This document shows positions 40,375 through 48,188 of a stretch of DNA of 55,097 bases, piece by piece. Source of the stretch: Methylocystis sp. (lineage in GTDB: Bacteria > Pseudomonadota > Alphaproteobacteria > Rhizobiales > Beijerinckiaceae). The stretch lies in assembly GCF_021731785.1 (NCBI RefSeq), contig NZ_JAKFWS010000022.1, positions 1 to 55,097 on the forward strand, read 5' to 3'. How positions within the stretch are numbered: position 1 is the first letter of the stretch; each line of letters opens with the position of its first letter. A program made the position numbers and the translations under genes. Below the pieces are notes generated by a model. It had not been told where the DNA came from, made no database searches, and was given only the letters and a program-made list of their open reading frames with translations.

Positions 40375-41304
40375 ATGCGGATCAAGGTCTTGGGGTCGGG
40401 TGCCGGCGGCGGCTTCCCGCAATGGAACTGCAACTGCGCCAATTGCCGGGCGGTCCGCGCTGGAACGCCGGGATATGCGCCGCGCACCCAGTCGTCATTG
40501 GCGGTCAGCGCCAATGGCGCCGACTGGCTTCTGCTCAACGCTTCGCCCGATTTACGCCAGCAAATCGCAGCTGCGCCCGAGCTCGCGCCCGGCGCTGATG
40601 ACGGCTTGCGCGCGAGCCCGATCAAGGCGGTGGCGCTGACCAATGGCGACGTCGATCACGTCGCGGGCCTTCTCAACATGCGCGAAGCGCAGCCGTTCAG
40701 CCTTTACGCCGCGGGACGCGTTCTCGATGCGCTCGGCGTCAATCCGATTTTCACAATACTGCAGACGCAGCTCGTGCCGCGCATCGAACTTCGGATGGAC
40801 GAAGCGGTCGCAATAAGAGGCGCCGGCCTCGATCTGGGGCTCGCCATCCGCGCCTTTCCGGTTCCGGGCAAGATTGCGCTCTACCTTGAGAACGCCAACG
40901 CGCCGAACTTCGGCACAAGCGCAGGCGACACGCTCGGGCTGGAGATCATCGAAGCGGCAACCGGAGACTCATTCTTTTACATTCCCGGCTGCGCAAGTAT
41001 CGACGCGCCGCTCGCCGACCGTCTGCGCGGCGCCAAGCTTGTCTTCTTCGACGGAACGCTGTTCCACGAGAACGAGATGATCGAGCAGGGTCTGCTGGGC
41101 AAGACCGGTTCGCGCATGGGCCATATCAACGTCAGCGGCGCCGACGGCTCCATCGCCGCCTTCGCGCCGCTCGACGTGACGCGCAAAATCTACGTGCACA
41201 TCAACAATTCGAATCCGCTTCTCAACGAGTTCTCGGACGAATATTCGATCGCGCAAGCGGCCGGCTGGGAAGTCGGCGAGGATGGGATGGAGGTCAAGCT
41301 GTGA
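40375..41304 (+). CDS. pqqB: PQQ biosynthesis protein PqqB
   Basis: PqqB is a metallo-beta-lactamase-fold enzyme needed for pyrroloquinoline quinone, the cofactor of methanol dehydrogenase; it acts in tyrosine hydroxylation of the processed precursor. The 309-residue product starts MRIKVLGSGAGGGFPQWNC and has the metal motif TNGDVDHVAGLL and FDGTLFHENEMI. The zinc-structural cysteines CNCANC follow PQWN. ATG 40375 matches the start of known PqqB; ATG 40360 is an alternative. It overlaps pqqC by 4 bases. No pqqA was found in front of it. Confidence 0.94.
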   Translation: MRIKVLGSGAGGGFPQWNCNCANCRAVRAGTPGYAPRTQSSLAVSANGADWLLLNASPDLRQQIAAAPELAPGADDGLRASPIKAVALTNGDVDHVAGLLNMREAQPFSLYAAGRVLDALGVNPIFTILQTQLVPRIELRMDEAVAIRGAGLDLGLAIRAFPVPGKIALYLENANAPNFGTSAGDTLGLEIIEAATGDSFFYIPGCASIDAPLADRLRGAKLVFFDGTLFHENEMIEQGLLGKTGSRMGHINVSGADGSIAAFAPLDVTRKIYVHINNSNPLLNEFSDEYSIAQAAGWEVGEDGMEVKL

Positions 41305-42071
41305 ACGAGATCGTAGCCATCGATTGGCGCGAGGCGGCGCCGCTCCCCCGCGACGCATTTGAAGCCGCGATCCGCGCAGTCGGAGCCGAGCGCTATCACG
41401 ACAAGCATGAATTTCATAAGCTGCTGCACGGCGGCAAGCTCAAGAAGGAGCAGGTCGCCGCCTGGGCGCTCAACCGCTACTGTTACCAGGAGGCGGTGCC
41501 ACGGAAGGACGCCGCCTTCATGAGCCGCGTCCACGACCGCGAGCTGCGCCGCGAATGGATCCATCGCATCCACGATCATGACGGCCTCGGCGACGAAGGC
41601 GGCGGCATCGAGCGCTGGCTGGTGCTGACCAACGCGTTGGGCTTCTCGCGCGATTACGTCACCTCTCGTCGGGGCGCCCTGCCCGCAACCAAATTCGCGG
41701 TCGAAGCCTATGTCCGCTTCGTCGTCGAGCAGCCGCTCACGGTCGCGGTGGCGTCTTCGCTGACCGAGCTCTTCGCGCCGTCGATCCATCGAGAACGCAT
41801 CGCCGGAATGCTCGAAAACTACGATTTCGTCGACGACCGCGTTATGGCCTATTTCAAGCGCCGCCTGAGCCAGGCGCCGCGCGATTCCGAATTTGCGCTG
41901 GGCTTCGTGCTCGATAACGCCAAATCCCGCGCCGAGCAGGAGGCCTGCGTCGGCGCGGTGCGGTTCAAATGCGACGTCTTGTGGGCGCAGCTTGACGCAT
42001 TACATCACGCCTACGTCACGCCCGGGCTGATCCCGCCCGGCGCATGGCGGCCAGGAGAAGCAAATGTCTGA
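41301..42071 (+). CDS. pqqC: Pyrroloquinoline-quinone synthase PqqC
   Basis: PqqC carries out the final ring closure and eight-electron oxidation to PQQ using oxygen, without a metal. The 256-residue helical protein has the conserved YHDKHEFHKLLHGGKL, WALNRYCYQEAVPRKDAAF, RVHDRELRREWIHRI and SSLTELFAPSIH segments. It starts at a GTG overlapping pqqB and overlaps pqqDE by 8 bases. Here PqqC is free-standing, not fused to PqqD as in Methylobacterium. Confidence 0.96.
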   Translation: MNEIVAIDWREAAPLPRDAFEAAIRAVGAERYHDKHEFHKLLHGGKLKKEQVAAWALNRYCYQEAVPRKDAAFMSRVHDRELRREWIHRIHDHDGLGDEGGGIERWLVLTNALGFSRDYVTSRRGALPATKFAVEAYVRFVVEQPLTVAVASSLTELFAPSIHRERIAGMLENYDFVDDRVMAYFKRRLSQAPRDSEFALGFVLDNAKSRAEQEACVGAVRFKCDVLWAQLDALHHAYVTPGLIPPGAWRPGEANV

Positions 42072-43536
42072 GGCGCGCGTCGCGCGGTTCGTGATCGGCC
42101 CGGACTCGCGTCCGGCCTTCACGCGCTATGCGCGGCTGCACGAAGACCGCGCGCGATCGCGAACGGTCATTCTCGCGCCTGAGCGCGCGTATGAACTCGA
42201 TCCGATCGGACTCATTGTCCTGCGCGCGATCGACGGCGCGACGCGCCTCGCCGATCTCTGCGCGCGGCTTGCGCAGCAATATGCCGCGCCGCTCGACGTC
42301 ATTACGCGAGACGTCACCGCGCTTCTGCAAGGGCTCGCCGACAAGCGGCTGCTGCGTGACGGACCGGACGAATTTGCGCCGCCGCCACCTTCCGCCTTCG
42401 CCTCTTCAATTACGCCGTCCGCAGGCGGGCCGGCTGGACTGCTCGCGGAACTCACCCATCGCTGTCCGCTGCAATGTCCCTATTGCTCAAATCCGCTCGA
42501 ACTCGAGCGATCGAATGCGGAGCTCACCGCTGACGAATGGGGCGAGACGTTTCGCCAGGCGGCGTCGATCGGCGCATTGCAGCTGCATCTTTCCGGCGGC
42601 GAACCCACTGCGCGACGCGATCTTGAAGAGATACTCGTTCACGCAGTCGACGCCGGGCTCTACACCAATCTCGTCACCTCCGCCGTGCTGCTGACGCGCG
42701 AACGATTGCAGCGACTTGCCGAGATCGGCCTCGATCATGTGCAGGTCTCTATCCAGGACGTCGTCGCCGAGAGCGCGGACCGCATCTCAGGCTTTCAAGG
42801 CGGCGTCGCCAAGAAGCGCGACGTTGCGCGATGGACACGCGAATTCGGCATGGGATTGACGATCAACGCGCCGATGCACCGTCAGAACATCGCGCATCTG
42901 CCGCAGATCATCGATTTCGCCGTCGAGGTCGACGCGCAGCGCATCGAGATCGCGCACATCCAATATTACGCCTGGGCGCAGGTGAACCGCGCTGCGCTGA
43001 TTCCGACGCGCGAAACCTTTATGGAAACGGTCGGAATTGTCGACGAGGCGAAGAAGCGTCTCGCCGGCGTTCTCAACTTCGATTTCGTTATTCACGATCA
43101 TTACGCCAAGCGGCCGAAAGCATGCACGGGCGGCTGGGGCCGGTCGATCATGGCGGTGACGCCATCAGGCAAGGCCCTGCCCTGCCACGCCGCGCAAACT
43201 TTACCGGGACTGACATTCGACGATGTGCGCGAGCGACCGCTCGCCGACACCTGGCGAAACGGCTCGGCCTTCAACGCCTTCCGCGGCACGGAGTGGATGA
43301 AGGAGCCCTGTCGTTCTTGCGAGCGTCGCGAGATCGATTTCGGCGGGTGCCGCTGTCAGGCGTTCGCGATCGTCGGCGACGTTGCGGCGACCGATCCTGC
43401 CTGTCATCTTTCCCCGGACCATGCGCGCTTCGCCGCTTACGCGGAAGTCGAATCGCATGCCCCGGCTCCCGACTTCATCTACCGCCGCTATGGCGGCGCC
43501 GCGGCGTCAACGGCGCGCGCCAAGGAGCCCGCGTAG
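42064..43536 (+). CDS. pqqDE: PqqD-PqqE fusion: peptide chaperone plus radical-SAM crosslinking enzyme
   Basis: The 490-residue protein joins a PqqD domain (about 10-105, with LDPIGLIVLRAIDGATRLADL) through a Pro/Ala/Ser linker to a complete PqqE. The radical-SAM cluster is C134-x3-C138-x2-C141 (HRCPLQCPYC). The SPASM region has CTGGWGRSIMAVTPSGK, ALPCHAAQT, and a cysteine-rich end CRSCERREIDFGGCRCQAF. PqqE links Glu and Tyr of the PqqA peptide presented by PqqD, so fusion places chaperone and enzyme together. PqqD-PqqE fusions are known from a few methylotrophs. The peptide gene pqqA must lie elsewhere. Confidence 0.95.
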   Translation: MSEARVARFVIGPDSRPAFTRYARLHEDRARSRTVILAPERAYELDPIGLIVLRAIDGATRLADLCARLAQQYAAPLDVITRDVTALLQGLADKRLLRDGPDEFAPPPPSAFASSITPSAGGPAGLLAELTHRCPLQCPYCSNPLELERSNAELTADEWGETFRQAASIGALQLHLSGGEPTARRDLEEILVHAVDAGLYTNLVTSAVLLTRERLQRLAEIGLDHVQVSIQDVVAESADRISGFQGGVAKKRDVARWTREFGMGLTINAPMHRQNIAHLPQIIDFAVEVDAQRIEIAHIQYYAWAQVNRAALIPTRETFMETVGIVDEAKKRLAGVLNFDFVIHDHYAKRPKACTGGWGRSIMAVTPSGKALPCHAAQTLPGLTFDDVRERPLADTWRNGSAFNAFRGTEWMKEPCRSCERREIDFGGCRCQAFAIVGDVAATDPACHLSPDHARFAAYAEVESHAPAPDFIYRRYGGAAASTARAKEPA

Positions 43537-44199: not shown

Positions 44200-44604
44200 A
44201 TGAAATCGCGGGATACGCTTGTCCGTCTCAAACGGTTCCAGGCCGAGGAAAAACGCCGTCGCGTCGTCCAGCTCAACGCGATGATCGCCGAATTCACGCG
44301 GGTGGCCAATGAGCTTGAACGCGAAATCGGCCAGGAAGAGCGGCGCGCCAACATCAGCGACCTCAACCATTTCGCCTATCCGACCTATGCGCGCGCGGCG
44401 CGCACAAGGCGCGACAACATTCTCGCGTCAATCGCCGAACTGCGGGGGCAACTCGATGAGGCCGAGGCGCAGTTCAAAGAGGCAAGCGAAGATCACGCCA
44501 AGGCGCAAAGCCAGGAGGCGCGCGATCGCGGCGCCGAGCGCATGATCGACGTCGTCGCCGATCGGCGCCACGTCGAAATGCCCGACGCGTTTCGTCGCGC
44601 CTAG
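44200..44604 (+). CDS. fliJ: Flagellar export chaperone FliJ (Rhizobiales type)
   Basis: The 134-residue protein is an almost continuous coiled coil starting MKSRDTLVRLKRFQAEEKRR, with the conserved ISDLNHFAYPTYARAA segment seen in Rhizobiales FliJ. FliJ joins the export-gate ATPase FliI to the flagellar secretion gate. It stands alone: no fliI, ctrA or other flagellar gene is adjacent in the window. Confidence 0.82.
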   Translation: MKSRDTLVRLKRFQAEEKRRRVVQLNAMIAEFTRVANELEREIGQEERRANISDLNHFAYPTYARAARTRRDNILASIAELRGQLDEAEAQFKEASEDHAKAQSQEARDRGAERMIDVVADRRHVEMPDAFRRA

Positions 44605-44677: not shown

Positions 44678-45271
44678 CTAAGGCGGCGCAATCTGGCGCG
44701 GGAAGAGTCGCCAGCGCAGCCTGCCGCGCGGCAGTCGCGCCCAGACGCCGACGGCGCCCCGACGAATAGCGCTGACGTCTTCGTCTTTGGCGAGGGAGTT
44801 TGCGATTGAGGCGATGTCGAACTCGAATCGCCTAAAAAATAGCGCCGGGCCGGAACGCCCCGCCTCGACGAACGCAAGTTCGAAACGCGCGAGATCGACG
44901 ATCCAAACTGGCGCCAGATCGCGCTGCGCGATGCGTCGCTCAAGAAGCGCGACAAGCGCTGCAGCGTCTGCGCGGAGCTTTCCGTCGCTCGCGCGCCCGC
45001 GGATCGCCTCCCACAGAAGCGCGTCGAATCGATCGCCCAATGCGCGCGCCGTGAGCGGCAGCGCCTTGCGCGCGTAAAGCGTGCGCTTGCCGATCAGACT
45101 CCGCGCAAAAGCTTCCGTTTCGCACCGATCGAGCGCGGCGAGACGCTGCGTGTCGTACACGCTCAAACCGAACCGAGTCGCTACGGCGAGCGGCGCCTCG
45201 AAGTATTCGCGGCGCAGTTCTTCCTCCGTGAAAAGGCGCGCCAGCAGCGCCTGGGTTTCGGCTAACGCCAT
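44678..45271 (-). CDS. MNIO partner protein (RRE/DUF2063-like)
   Basis: The 197-residue protein begins with a small helical domain (ALLARLFTEEELRREYFEAP, then FGLSVYDTQRLAALD) and a second region with WIVDLARFELAFVEA. This two-part layout is that of the small partners that accompany DUF692/MNIO enzymes (MbnC, TglI, HvfC/BufC-like), which recognise the precursor peptide. Its start overlaps the MNIO stop by 10 bases, indicating coupled translation. The family call is by context and pattern and is less certain than for its neighbour. Confidence 0.75.
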   Translation of the reverse strand: MALAETQALLARLFTEEELRREYFEAPLAVATRFGLSVYDTQRLAALDRCETEAFARSLIGKRTLYARKALPLTARALGDRFDALLWEAIRGRASDGKLRADAAALVALLERRIAQRDLAPVWIVDLARFELAFVEAGRSGPALFFRRFEFDIASIANSLAKDEDVSAIRRGAVGVWARLPRGRLRWRLFPRQIAPP

Positions 45272-46113
45272 CGTCGATTTTCCACGAGCGTTGCGCGCGC
45301 CCGCGCCGCTTCGTCGATGAGTTCTAAGAACGGCGGCATGTTTTCGTCGCGCTCAAGAACGACGCCCCTGACCGGCGCGCGCGCCACGACGCGATCGTAG
45401 AGCGTCCAGACCGCTTCGCTCGTCGCAGCGTCATGGCTGTCGATCAGCAGCCCGTTGCGCGCGCGGCCGCCGGCGTAGTGAATTTGCACGAGCCTGTCCC
45501 ATGGCCAGCAATTAAAATCCCTTTCGAGATCGAAGCTGAAATTGGTCGCATTCACATGCAGGTTGGCGACGTCGCAGAGCCAGCCGCACCCTGTCGCTTC
45601 CAGCGTGCGCGACAAAAATTCAGCTTCGTCCATTTCGCCGCCCGGAATACGCACGACCGTCGTGACGTTTTCCAGGATCAGCGGCGTCTTTATGCGCCTT
45701 CTCACATAATCGACATTGCGCGCGACTGCGTCGATCGCCTCCCGCGTGTAGGGCAGCGAAGCGAGATGGCCGATGCGCACGCCGCCGGCGCGGGTGAAGC
45801 AAAGATGCTCGCTCCACCAGGGCGGATCGATGCGTTCGATCAGCGCGGCGATTTTGTCGAGATAGCGCGGATCGACGCCGTCTGCGCTGCCGATCGAGAG
45901 ATCGAGACCATGCGCGACGAGCGGGAAGTGCGATCTTAGAAGGTCGAGTTCGTCGAGCTTCTCTCGCGTTGCGTCGAGATAATGGTCGGCGACAATCTCA
46001 AGAAAATCGATCCGGTCTCGATGAGCGAAGAGATCGGCCCGAAACTCCGGGCGATAGCCGATTCCGGAACCTAGCGCTGGCGCGTCAATCGCCGCCACCA
46101 TTCGCTCCGCCAT
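45262..46113 (-). CDS. DUF692 multinuclear iron oxidase (MNIO)
   Basis: The 283-residue TIM-barrel protein belongs to the family of MbnB and TglH, iron enzymes that oxidatively modify cysteine residues in peptides. Expected metal-site residues are visible: H68 in VAHGLDLSIG, E102-H103 in WWSEHLCFT, E148-N149 in LENVTT, D181 and H186 in CDVANLHVNATN, H212 in QIHYAGG, D225 and H227 in IDSHDA, and E254 in LERDENMP. The N-terminal GSGIGYRPEF is typical. It overlaps the upstream membrane-protein gene by 29 bases (17 if ATG 46101 is used) and its partner gene downstream. The likely substrate is the Cys/Gly tail of that upstream protein. Confidence 0.92.
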   Translation of the reverse strand: MAERMVAAIDAPALGSGIGYRPEFRADLFAHRDRIDFLEIVADHYLDATREKLDELDLLRSHFPLVAHGLDLSIGSADGVDPRYLDKIAALIERIDPPWWSEHLCFTRAGGVRIGHLASLPYTREAIDAVARNVDYVRRRIKTPLILENVTTVVRIPGGEMDEAEFLSRTLEATGCGWLCDVANLHVNATNFSFDLERDFNCWPWDRLVQIHYAGGRARNGLLIDSHDAATSEAVWTLYDRVVARAPVRGVVLERDENMPPFLELIDEAARARATLVENRRWR

Positions 46114-47002
46114 CGCCGCAACTGCCGCTGCAGCTCATCCCGCAATTGGCGCCCTGGCTTTGGGAGCTGCGGCTGAAGGTTTCGGCGAACATCGCCTCCG
46201 TCGTGCCCTTGAGCGGCGAGAATCCATAAAGGCCGATAAGAAACAGCGCGGCACCATGGAACGCGCGCGCCTCCGGCCCCGGCGAGCCGATGTGCGCGAC
46301 CGCCTCTTTCAAGCGCCCGCCATAGGCGAGTCGCATCGCTTCGAGATAGGCGTGGCCGCGACGGCTTGCATGCGTTCTGGTCATCACATAGGCGAGCGCG
46401 AAAAGCGCGGCGACGGAAGCGGCGGCGAGAAAGATGAGATAGGCGAGGTTCGCAGGACCCTTCGACCATTCGACAACGATCTTCGCAAGCGCCACGCCGA
46501 CGATGATCAGCGTTCCGCCGATCTGCGCGCGCCGGCGCCAGATTTTCACCGACTGAGGTTTGATCAGATCCTCCGCCGCGAGTTTGGCGCGGATCGGCGC
46601 GAGCTGCTCGAGCAGCGGCCGCCGCAGGCTGCGATCTTCAAACAGCGCATGCGCCTTCGGCTTCGCCTGCGCGGCTTCAAGCAGTAGCGTCTCCATCGCG
46701 TTGAGGTCGCCCGGTTGCGGCTGGTTTTCGGTGGGGATCACGTGATCCTCAGGCGCAAGGGCGACAAAGCCGCGCTGAGCAAGATCGTAAATCAAGGTTC
46801 GGATGACCTGATTGACGCCGCCCTGCAGGAAGGCGACTTCCATTGCATCCGGGTTTTGCGGCACAGGCGGCGGCGGGCGGCGATCCGTGCGATCCGCGAG
46901 GCGGATGCAGAGATAGACGGCAGCGAGCACGCCAATGACGACGAGCCCGAAGACGTTGAGGAACTCCGGGCCGGGAAGATCGAGGATCGCTAAATTTTGC
47001 AT
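46085..47002 (-). CDS. Membrane protein with Cys/Gly-rich C-terminal tail (TIGR04222-like), putative MNIO substrate
   Basis: The 305-residue protein has an N-terminal membrane helix (about 15-35), a cytoplasmic-type domain of about 130 residues starting with NPDAMEVAFLQGGVNQVI, two more helices (about 175-225), and a short C-terminal domain. The last 26 residues hold NCGMSCSGSCGDGG with cysteines at 287, 291 and 295, ending in glycines. By memory this fits the TIGR04222 family, membrane proteins with Cys/Gly tails found beside DUF692 genes. It starts 9 bases after ctaA and overlaps the MNIO gene. Modification of the tail cysteines is inferred from context. Confidence 0.85.
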   Translation of the reverse strand: MQNLAILDLPGPEFLNVFGLVVIGVLAAVYLCIRLADRTDRRPPPPVPQNPDAMEVAFLQGGVNQVIRTLIYDLAQRGFVALAPEDHVIPTENQPQPGDLNAMETLLLEAAQAKPKAHALFEDRSLRRPLLEQLAPIRAKLAAEDLIKPQSVKIWRRRAQIGGTLIIVGVALAKIVVEWSKGPANLAYLIFLAAASVAALFALAYVMTRTHASRRGHAYLEAMRLAYGGRLKEAVAHIGSPGPEARAFHGAALFLIGLYGFSPLKGTTEAMFAETFSRSSQSQGANCGMSCSGSCGDGGANGGGD

Positions 47003-47011
47003 GCCGCCGCC

Positions 47012-48121
47012 TCAGCGCACTACGTATTGCGCAAGACGTCGCGCCTGCAGCGTCGCGACCGCCAGCACCGCCATGCCGATCGCCTGATGCGCGAGCGCCA
47101 GCGCCAGATGCGGCGCGCCGGCGAAGGGCGGCTCGACCAACACCAAAGTCGCGATTCCGAGCGCGATCTGCATGAGCACATGTCCGAACAGAATCCCGGC
47201 GCCGCGGCGCACGCGTCCTTCCGCATTCATCCACGCATCGATGAGATGCCCGAGCGCCAGAGCAAAAATCGCATAGGCGATCATGCGGTGGAAGAATTGG
47301 ACGGTAACGGGATTGTCGACGAGATTCGTCCACACCGGCTCCAAGCGCCACAACACGTCGGCCGGCGGAATGAAAACCCCGTCCATCAGCGGCCAGGTGT
47401 TGTCGATGAGCCCCGCGCGCAGCCCGGCGACCAGGCCGCCGACGAAAATCTGCAGAAAAACCGAAACGAGAATCGTCAGCGCGACCGCCTTCAATCGGCC
47501 TGCCCCGTCGTGCACGAGCGCGACGGCGCGCGGCCCAAGGCCGCCAGCCACCCATAGACAAGCAGAAAAGATCAGCGCCGCCAGCAGCAGGTGAATCGCC
47601 AGGCGCTCCTGCGCCACCTCGACACGATTGATTAGTCCGGACGCCACCATCCACCAGCCGACGCCGCCCTGAGCCGCGCCAAGCGCAATAATGCCCAAGA
47701 GCTTCGGCTTCACCGAGCGCGGCAGTTGGCCCCTCGCCCAAAACCATATCAGCGGAACGGCGAAAACGACGCCGATCAGGCGCCCGAGCAGGCGATGCGC
47801 CCATTCCCAGGCATAGATATACTTGAACCCGGCAAGGTCCATGTCCGGGAACAGTTCCTTATACTGCGGAATCTGCTTGTATTCCTCGAAGGCCTCCTGC
47901 CACTCCTGCTGCGACAGTGGCGGCAGCGCGCCGGTAACCGGCTTCCATTGCACGATGGAGAGGCCCGATTCGGTCAGCCGCGTCGCGCCGCCGACGACGA
48001 CCATCAGAAAAACCAGAGCCGCCACAACCCAGAGCCAGTTGCGCACCGCAATGGCGTTCGCCTCGGTGACATGGTGTCTGATCGCCGGGACCGGATGGGG
48101 GAAGTGCAGCCAATCTTCCAT
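47012..48121 (-). CDS. ctaA: Heme A synthase (CtaA/Cox15)
   Basis: CtaA oxidises heme O to heme A for aa3-type cytochrome oxidases. The 369-residue protein has eight membrane helices and the family landmarks VVGGATRLTESGLSIVQW and WEWAHRLLGRLIG. Other conserved histidines are in LAIHLLLA, FFHRMIAY and LAHQAIG. Length and motif set fit the type 2 (Cox15) class of alphaproteobacteria. ATG 48121 is chosen; a GTG at 48187 would add a Pro-rich 22 residues and cannot be excluded. The stop is 9 bases before the Cys-tail membrane protein. Confidence 0.94.
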   Translation of the reverse strand: MEDWLHFPHPVPAIRHHVTEANAIAVRNWLWVVAALVFLMVVVGGATRLTESGLSIVQWKPVTGALPPLSQQEWQEAFEEYKQIPQYKELFPDMDLAGFKYIYAWEWAHRLLGRLIGVVFAVPLIWFWARGQLPRSVKPKLLGIIALGAAQGGVGWWMVASGLINRVEVAQERLAIHLLLAALIFSACLWVAGGLGPRAVALVHDGAGRLKAVALTILVSVFLQIFVGGLVAGLRAGLIDNTWPLMDGVFIPPADVLWRLEPVWTNLVDNPVTVQFFHRMIAYAIFALALGHLIDAWMNAEGRVRRGAGILFGHVLMQIALGIATLVLVEPPFAGAPHLALALAHQAIGMAVLAVATLQARRLAQYVVR

Positions 48122-48188
48122 GAGACGCCGAGGGTTGGGAGCCGGATGACGGGGGCCAGTTAAGGGATGCGGCGCCCGCTTGTCCACA

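Follow-up and report, generated by a model that had tools for sequence, protein, structure and literature searches.

A TIGR04222–MNIO–partner cassette in Methylocystis: the conserved cysteine tail of a membrane protein as a candidate substrate

Described TIGR04222–MNIO clusters and the Methylocystis cassette

The closest described counterparts of the locus considered here are the TIGR04222 clusters of Antoine et al. (2025; PMC12452194), the only paper besides one on Pseudonocardia that our literature search on TIGR04222 returned. According to the text of that paper, many TIGR04222 genes precede genes of multinuclear non-heme iron-dependent oxidative enzymes (MNIOs), and a subset of TIGR04222 proteins have Ser/Gly-rich, Cys-containing C-termini predicted to be periplasmic. 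These Cys-tailed proteins were proposed as MNIO substrates with PME-type 2 partners, coded by 10% or more of such clusters; over a quarter of the TIGR04222 proteins concerned have no C-proximal cysteines, one third of the genomes with TIGR04222 genes have no MNIO gene, and the modification and the role of the tails were left open. Here we analyze a cassette of this kind in Methylocystis sp., on a stretch of 55,097 nucleotides (GCF_021731785.1, contig NZ_JAKFWS010000022.1; hereafter the window). It codes for a TIGR04222 membrane protein (T), an MNIO and a partner protein, and we consider it moderately probable that the MNIO and the partner modify the tail cysteines of T, as a three-gene maturation cassette whose product would stay tethered to the membrane.

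The main features of the cassette are as follows:

46085..47002, minus strand: T, TIGR04222 membrane protein of 305 amino acids (TIGR04222 match, open reading frame)
46088..46165, minus strand: Gly/Ser/Cys tail of T, residues 280-305, with Cys287, Cys291 and Cys295 within 46118-46144
45262..46113, minus strand: MNIO enzyme (PF05114, MbnB/TglH/ChrH; PF05114 match) of 283 amino acids
44678..45271, minus strand: partner of 197 amino acids, with an N-terminal NHLP-like region and a region remotely similar to DUF2063-type partners

In the open reading frame (ORF) calls, each of the three genes overlaps the next, T and the MNIO by at most 29 nt (the value for the first ATG of the MNIO) and the MNIO and the partner by 10 nt. 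Because of these overlaps, the genes very likely form a single operon. The three overlapping genes described in an earlier note on this DNA are confirmed by these coordinates, and its suggested profile check of the 305-residue protein gave 86 bits against the TIGR04222 cut-off of 43 (NCBIfam, residues 20-254); the 283-residue protein scored 277 bits against the PF05114 cut-off of 25 (Pfam). T is the single TIGR04222 gene of its genome. An ORF scan of 43-49 kb found no other plausible Cys-rich precursor ORF in the cassette; the four small ORFs with at least four cysteines and 5% Cys in this region all lie inside larger ORFs, in other frames.

The cassette shares with the published TIGR04222–MNIO–PME-type 2 clusters (PMC12452194) the position of the T gene before the MNIO gene, a Ser/Gly-rich, Cys-containing C-terminus, a tail predicted to be periplasmic, and a partner without a Pfam-detectable DUF2063 domain, whose putative remote similarity to DUF2063 proteins is suggested by profile comparison only. 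It differs in that the paper reports mostly Actinomycetota, whereas the window belongs to Pseudomonadota, and describes large periplasmic domains, whereas the charge pattern of the T proteins suggests, weakly, a cytoplasmic large loop. The genus of the window also has a conserved C-G-x-S-C-x3-C motif and evidence of joint loss. The cassette is a real, conserved and well-supported case of an already proposed kind; new in relation to that kind are the joint-absence pattern, the selection on the core of T and a variant with a radical S-adenosylmethionine (SAM) enzyme. The passages found of the 2013 methanobactin genome-mining paper do not describe the cassette.

Conservation of the tail and its joint absence with the MNIO

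The tail of the window's T carries Cys287, Cys291 and Cys295 in the Gly/Ser-rich sequence GANCGMSCSGSCGDGG, the C-x3-C-x3-C arrangement that the earlier note had placed in the last 26 residues of the protein. This arrangement alone is not rare (5 of the 742 window ORFs of at least 20 amino acids). TIGR04222 was found in 33 of 39 genomes of the genus of the window; in 27 of these 33 loci, MNIO and partner hits follow T, and 26 of the 27 keep C-G-x-S-C-x3-C. In these 26 tails the three cysteines, the glycines after the first and the third of them and the serine before the second are invariant, and several neighbouring positions vary. The conservation exceeds chance; the 26 loci are closely related and do not represent 26 independent cases. 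Variation of the tail cysteines among relatives beside DUF692, which the earlier note had named as the finding that would refute its proposal, was thus looked for, and the cysteines proved to be conserved.

The single exception is a T gene with a 34-base deletion. A natural fusion of T and MNIO was considered at this place (L017 8001-9713 and L184 4944-6656, regarded as one contig) but rejected, since the frame of 570 amino acids that spans both genes stems from the deletion, in the 3' part of T, on one metagenome-derived contig.

For a wider comparison, 57 T loci were used (the window, L074-L105 and L161-L184; L006-L018, which repeat or resemble genus loci, were omitted), with a shorter pattern, C-G-x-S-C, that was chosen after the tails had been seen. 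The pattern is present in 28 of the 31 T loci with an MNIO beside them (26 of 27 in the genus and two of four outside) and in none of the 26 without an MNIO, namely none of the four in the radical SAM group described below (two tails are cut by contig ends) and none of the 22 with neither enzyme (one tail is masked). In a Tsukamurella record (L186), T, DUF692 and a 61-residue ORF stand in a row, and the tail reads SCGGASCGGDGGGGCGGCGG... Of the two actinobacterial plasmid records examined, one has TIGR04222 beside DUF692 and the other has no annotated TIGR04222; the T proteins of the window and of L083 had no match among plasmids.

In the remaining six of the 33 genus loci, no MNIO or partner hit was found within the fetched stretch. 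Five of these six T proteins could be read and stop some 20 residues sooner, with no or one cysteine, and the sixth is masked by N, so that C-G-x-S-C-x3-C is seen in none of the six. No MNIO was found anywhere in five of the six genomes, three of which are only 66-81% complete; the sixth (G238) has one elsewhere. The borders of the cassette in the window are formed by two genes:

47012..48187, minus strand: CtaA, heme A synthase-like, upstream neighbour (324 bits, below the equivalog cut-off of 550)
44200..44604, plus strand: FliJ-like gene, convergent, the downstream border of the cassette (30 bits, below the cut-off of 50)

The gene order is ctaA, T, MNIO, partner and fliJ, and in tail-less loci the fliJ-like gene stands directly after T. 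This shared synteny implies loss at the same genomic place. Among the 12 genus loci tabulated, ctaA lies upstream of T in 11 (the twelfth, L101, ends beside T), the convergent fliJ-like gene lies downstream in all 12, and pqqE then follows in nine. The ctaA-like neighbour is context and is not claimed as part of the system; a family-wide link between ctaA and T was rejected, ctaA not being found near T in L092, L100, L103 and L104.

The joint absence is observed at one locus in a nested clade. The T tree was built from 42 of 46 rows (L017 was dropped for its deletion, L081 as very divergent, L091 for an open contig end and L096 as a duplicate of L018). A 24-row clade (99/98) contains every MNIO-bearing row and also three of the five tail-less ones; within the tree, a 20-row clade (100/99) holds tail-less rows together with MNIO-keeping genus rows, and MNIO-bearing rows also branch outside it. 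The three tail-less rows form one starred clade (100/99), and the other two losers are not in the tree. The simplest reading of this pattern is a joint loss of tail, MNIO and partner, the three behaving as one module, and the apparent joint loss makes the link between tail and MNIO firmer.

Three observations make the tail the probable substrate of the MNIO: no other Cys-rich candidate was found in the operon, the tail cysteines are conserved in loci with the enzyme, and in the genus they are absent where the MNIO and the partner are absent. To this extent the earlier note's proposal of the tail as MNIO substrate is supported; Cys/Gly tails also occur where no MNIO was found, and this is among the observations that weigh against it. 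Outside the genus, C-G-x-S-C was present in only two of four MNIO loci; at least two tail cysteines are found in 14 of the 22 T loci with neither enzyme, 10 of these 14 with CGGCG; and seven of the 14 come from genomes in which no MNIO was found. Being unrooted, the T tree does not by itself distinguish a gain from a loss; the node connecting the losers with the window's group is unstarred (89/73), and the five losers probably represent one event. Furthermore, since tail, MNIO and partner are contiguous, one deletion could remove all three without any functional link.

Two alternatives draw on these observations. According to the first, the tail cysteines act unmodified, as a plain metal- or redox-binding appendage, and the MNIO acts elsewhere or only tunes the tail. 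The Cys-tailed loci with neither enzyme, half of them in genomes where no MNIO was found, speak for it. The confinement of C-G-x-S-C to MNIO-bearing loci in our sample, the disappearance of the cysteines together with the MNIO in the genus, and the failure to find another candidate precursor in the operon speak against it, and we regard it as unlikely. The simpler assumption that tail cysteines imply an MNIO was rejected, given the Cys/Gly tails in genomes where none was found; the tail alone therefore does not imply modification. The Cys/Gly tail appears to be older than, or independent of, the MNIO, and it is the C-G-x-S-C spacing that goes with the enzyme, chiefly in the genus.

According to the second, the joint loss was a neutral deletion that spared the core of T by chance and is uninformative on function. 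The contiguity of the lost pieces and the single starred clade of the three losers in the tree agree with this. However, C-G-x-S-C accompanies the MNIO also outside the genus, in two of four loci, and was seen in none of the 26 MNIO-less loci, and the remaining core is under selection. In two close pairs of tail-less T genes, dN/dS was 0.139 and 0.144 (265 codons, NG86), and in six close tail-keeping pairs it was 0.119-0.138 (NG86); two wider tail-less pairs gave 0.27 and 0.30, and dS was undefined (saturated) in six of the 10 tail-less pairs. We consider a neutral deletion of this kind decidedly improbable.

The tail-less core of T is under purifying selection, and hence the membrane part is retained for a function independent of the tail, which argues against T as a mere peptide carrier or precursor. 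With close relatives that have and do not have the tail, the MNIO and the partner, the genus offers a natural comparison.

Proposed maturation of the tail

Hydropathy places hydrophobic segments of T at residues 15-33, 159-177 and 189-207 and a weaker one at 247-265. The window's T has the traits of the TIGR04222 type, several transmembrane segments and a low-complexity Gly/Ser/Cys C-terminus, with a weak segment 4. Charges and hydropathy of 13 T proteins fit a topology with the N-terminus outside and with the loop between segments 1 and 2 and the loop before segment 4 inside; in the latter (29-39 residues), K+R exceeds D+E in all 12 proteins in which the scan left the loop whole. The tail would then lie outside if segment 4 spans the membrane. 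The mean Kyte-Doolittle value of segment 4 is 1.1-1.4 in the four genus T proteins scanned, and owing to this weakness a cytoplasmic tail is also conceivable. The long loop between segments 1 and 2 may be cytoplasmic, a weak placement because its charge is nearly balanced. Close relatives of T in named genomes were found at 13 loci (nine Methylocystis, one Methylocystaceae and three labelled "Alphaproteobacteria bacterium").

In its turn, the MNIO of the window has BufB as its nearest named NCBIfam model, at 241 against a cut-off of 310, and scores 49 against the MbnB cut-off of 325, so that neither cut-off is reached. Six MNIOs were aligned: that of the window, two bufferin-type ones and MbnB of the same genome, a relative from the family and an actinobacterial TIGR04222-linked one. 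Twenty columns are invariant, including the His, Asp, Glu and Asn of the likely metal site, which we take to be the iron ligands; the claim of the earlier note that the metal-site residues of DUF692 are intact holds, since the window's MNIO shares these columns with bufferin-type MNIOs and MbnB. In a tree made by a quick method, with L134 and L135 omitted from the remaining MNIOs, 12 T-linked MNIOs of the family (a selection of the ORFs from L006-L018, L074-L105, L161-L184 and the window) form one clade (99) apart from the sampled bufferin-type MNIOs. The T-linked MNIO of Tsukamurella joins this clade, together with a Streptomyces MNIO without an annotated TIGR04222 neighbour, in an unstarred group (94).

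Three other described systems come close to this one. Bufferins or captophorins have a BufB-type MNIO and a DUF2063 partner, and BufB is the nearest MNIO model and Cys-Gly sites are shared (PMC13097082); unlike them, the window's MNIO does not reach the BufB cut-off and groups apart from the bufferin-type clades sampled, its partner is not DUF2063 by Pfam, and a small peptide precursor is replaced by a multi-segment membrane protein of 305 residues. The methanobactin enzymes MbnB/MbnC belong to the same MNIO superfamily, and the genome itself codes for MbnB on another contig (L108), whereas the window's MNIO is far below the MbnB model, as given above. The DAG-RiPPs, hybrids of lipoproteins and ribosomally synthesized and post-translationally modified peptides (RiPPs), likewise have a membrane-anchored MNIO product, for which the text of PMC12636315 proposes cytosolic modification before lipidation; they differ in their N-terminal lipid anchor and in being small peptides of other MNIO subfamilies. 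The earlier note had seen in a membrane-bound tail a different use of MNIO chemistry. The tail stands as the likeliest substrate, but the idea was already in print (PMC12452194), and membrane-bound lipoprotein RiPPs have been described (PMC12636315).

The genome has four MNIO genes, and thus three further MNIO systems besides the cassette: two enzymes score above the BufB cut-off and one above that of MbnB. The former (L106 and L107, contigs 14 and 63) have DUF2063 partners and small Cys-containing ORFs upstream, the one upstream of the L107 enzyme being a DUF2282 protein; the latter (L108, contig 29) is MbnB over the methanobactin cut-off.

The partner matched no family over cut-off in Pfam or NCBIfam, and none of 13 members of its family matched Pfam DUF2063 at E 1. 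In 12 of the 13, the Os1348-family NHLP model finds a match in the N-terminal region (E of at most 1; best 1.5e-8; 0.059 for the window's partner), and in nine TIGR04509 does so (best 1.7e-5); this region is an NHLP-type leader-like domain in a presumed maturation partner, not in a precursor. Residues 68-167 were aligned by hhalign to a profile of bufferin-type partners (32 hits; Pfam DUF2063 in all six rows tested) with a score of 31.0 and E of 6.6e-4 for one pair, at a probability of only 27%. The controls all scored lower: 60 column shuffles reached 19.3 at best, the reversed profile 20.4, and T or MNIO at most 17.5; the alignment covers only the second half of the Pfam DUF2063 domain and what follows. 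The partner is likely a putative PME-type 2-like protein. Against solved structures, the profile gave two matches to capsid or coat proteins (E 0.7 each), rejected as chance. In G919, the partner gene gives two matches in different frames (L102 7681-8385 and 8034-8258) and may be frameshifted.

In the proposed mechanism, T would be a four-segment inner-membrane protein to which the partner holds the cytosolic MNIO; it is a speculation that the leader-like domain of the partner might supply the docking signal that the tail does not have. By four-electron chemistry, and before the tail takes its place at or across the membrane, the MNIO would oxidize at least one of the three tail cysteines; our best guess for the product is a 5-thiooxazole. 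The modified tail would stay on T and most likely bind copper(I) or a similar soft metal at the periplasmic face. If the tail is modified, MNIO chemistry reaches an integral membrane protein, beyond peptides that are cut free, secreted or lipidated, and would build an immobile metal site in organisms whose way of life depends on copper enzymes.

Some considerations count against this mechanism as well. A cytosolic enzyme would have little time to reach a periplasmic tail. The chemistry is a guess, since neither the MNIO (against BufB) nor the radical SAM proteins (against SbtM and ACGX) reach the model cut-offs. AlphaFold2 gave no usable model of T with 13 close sequences (predicted local distance difference test, pLDDT, 40.1) or of the partner from its single sequence (pLDDT 46.8).

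The tail could also be a docking or leader-like segment that recruits the MNIO and the partner to the membrane, the oxidized substrate being a separate peptide encoded elsewhere. We hold this to be very unlikely. It could draw on the small Cys-containing ORFs, one of them DUF2282, upstream of the bufferin-type MNIOs of the genome, and on the persistence of the T core without the tail; yet the other MNIO loci of the genome are on other contigs and their enzymes fall outside the T-linked clade, and invariant cysteines are unlikely as a docking signal.

A radical SAM variant and further observations

A second lineage places a radical SAM enzyme where the MNIO stands, and this variant is the most novel thread of the analysis. 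In G445 and G516 (the latter 77% complete), the gene of a radical SAM/SPASM protein begins 3 bases after that of a CGGCG-tailed T, and no MNIO was found in either genome. The search of 21 TIGR04222 genomes with the radical SAM query gave four matches at E 1e-20 or better (G445, G516, G484 and G520); the window's own genome had none at that threshold. In G484 and G520, T runs off the contig end inside its Gly-rich tail and the radical SAM gene begins at the start of another contig, which fits the adjacency of the two genes and does not prove it. The four radical SAM/SPASM genes, all from genomes in which no MNIO was found, are:

L086 4747-5802, minus strand
L087 4780-5823, minus strand
L189 29-1054
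L190 2-1114

The nearest NCBIfam model is SbtM for three of them and ACGX for the fourth, all below the cut-offs. The pairing of T with a radical SAM enzyme was not found in the literature searched on TIGR04222, radical SAM, SbtM and ACGX; in the main text of Antoine et al. (PMC12452194), SbtM was not found, and radical SAM occurs only in the references. A review (PMC11002830) describes SbtM as forming a thiooxazole from Cys with the loss of four hydrogens, and for MNIO products that depend on PME1, PMC13097082 (and, tentatively, PMC12538549) reports thiooxazoles together with Cu(I) binding. We favour a thiooxazole because the product of SbtM is the group assigned to these Cu(I)-binding MNIO products. 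The radical SAM enzymes linked to T resemble the SbtM systems as their nearest model (three of four), SbtM acting on Cys (PMC11002830), and are unlike them in scoring below the SbtM cut-off and in leaving the first approximately 195 model positions unmatched.

A broader idea, which we put forward as possible and rather more doubtful than probable, is that T proteins are membrane platforms whose Cys tail would be turned into thiooxazole-type metal sites by two unrelated enzymes, an MNIO with its partner in Methylocystis and relatives, or an SbtM-like radical SAM enzyme in the MNIO-less lineage. The modification would be an upgrade that can be lost again from a membrane protein selected for a function of its own, not the making of a peptide natural product.

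Several longer MNIO-less T proteins (about 470-540 amino acids; L074-L076, L078, L079, L084, L093 and L094) carry an N-terminal extension. In L077, L082, L083 and L085, a separate gene of 183-186 amino acids lies directly upstream of T, and BLAST groups some of the extensions with such genes; none of those examined had a Pfam match. In the window itself, PqqC (41301-42071) stands ahead of a 490-residue ORF on the plus strand (42064-43536), in which PqqD (17-97) and PqqE (121-474) are fused.

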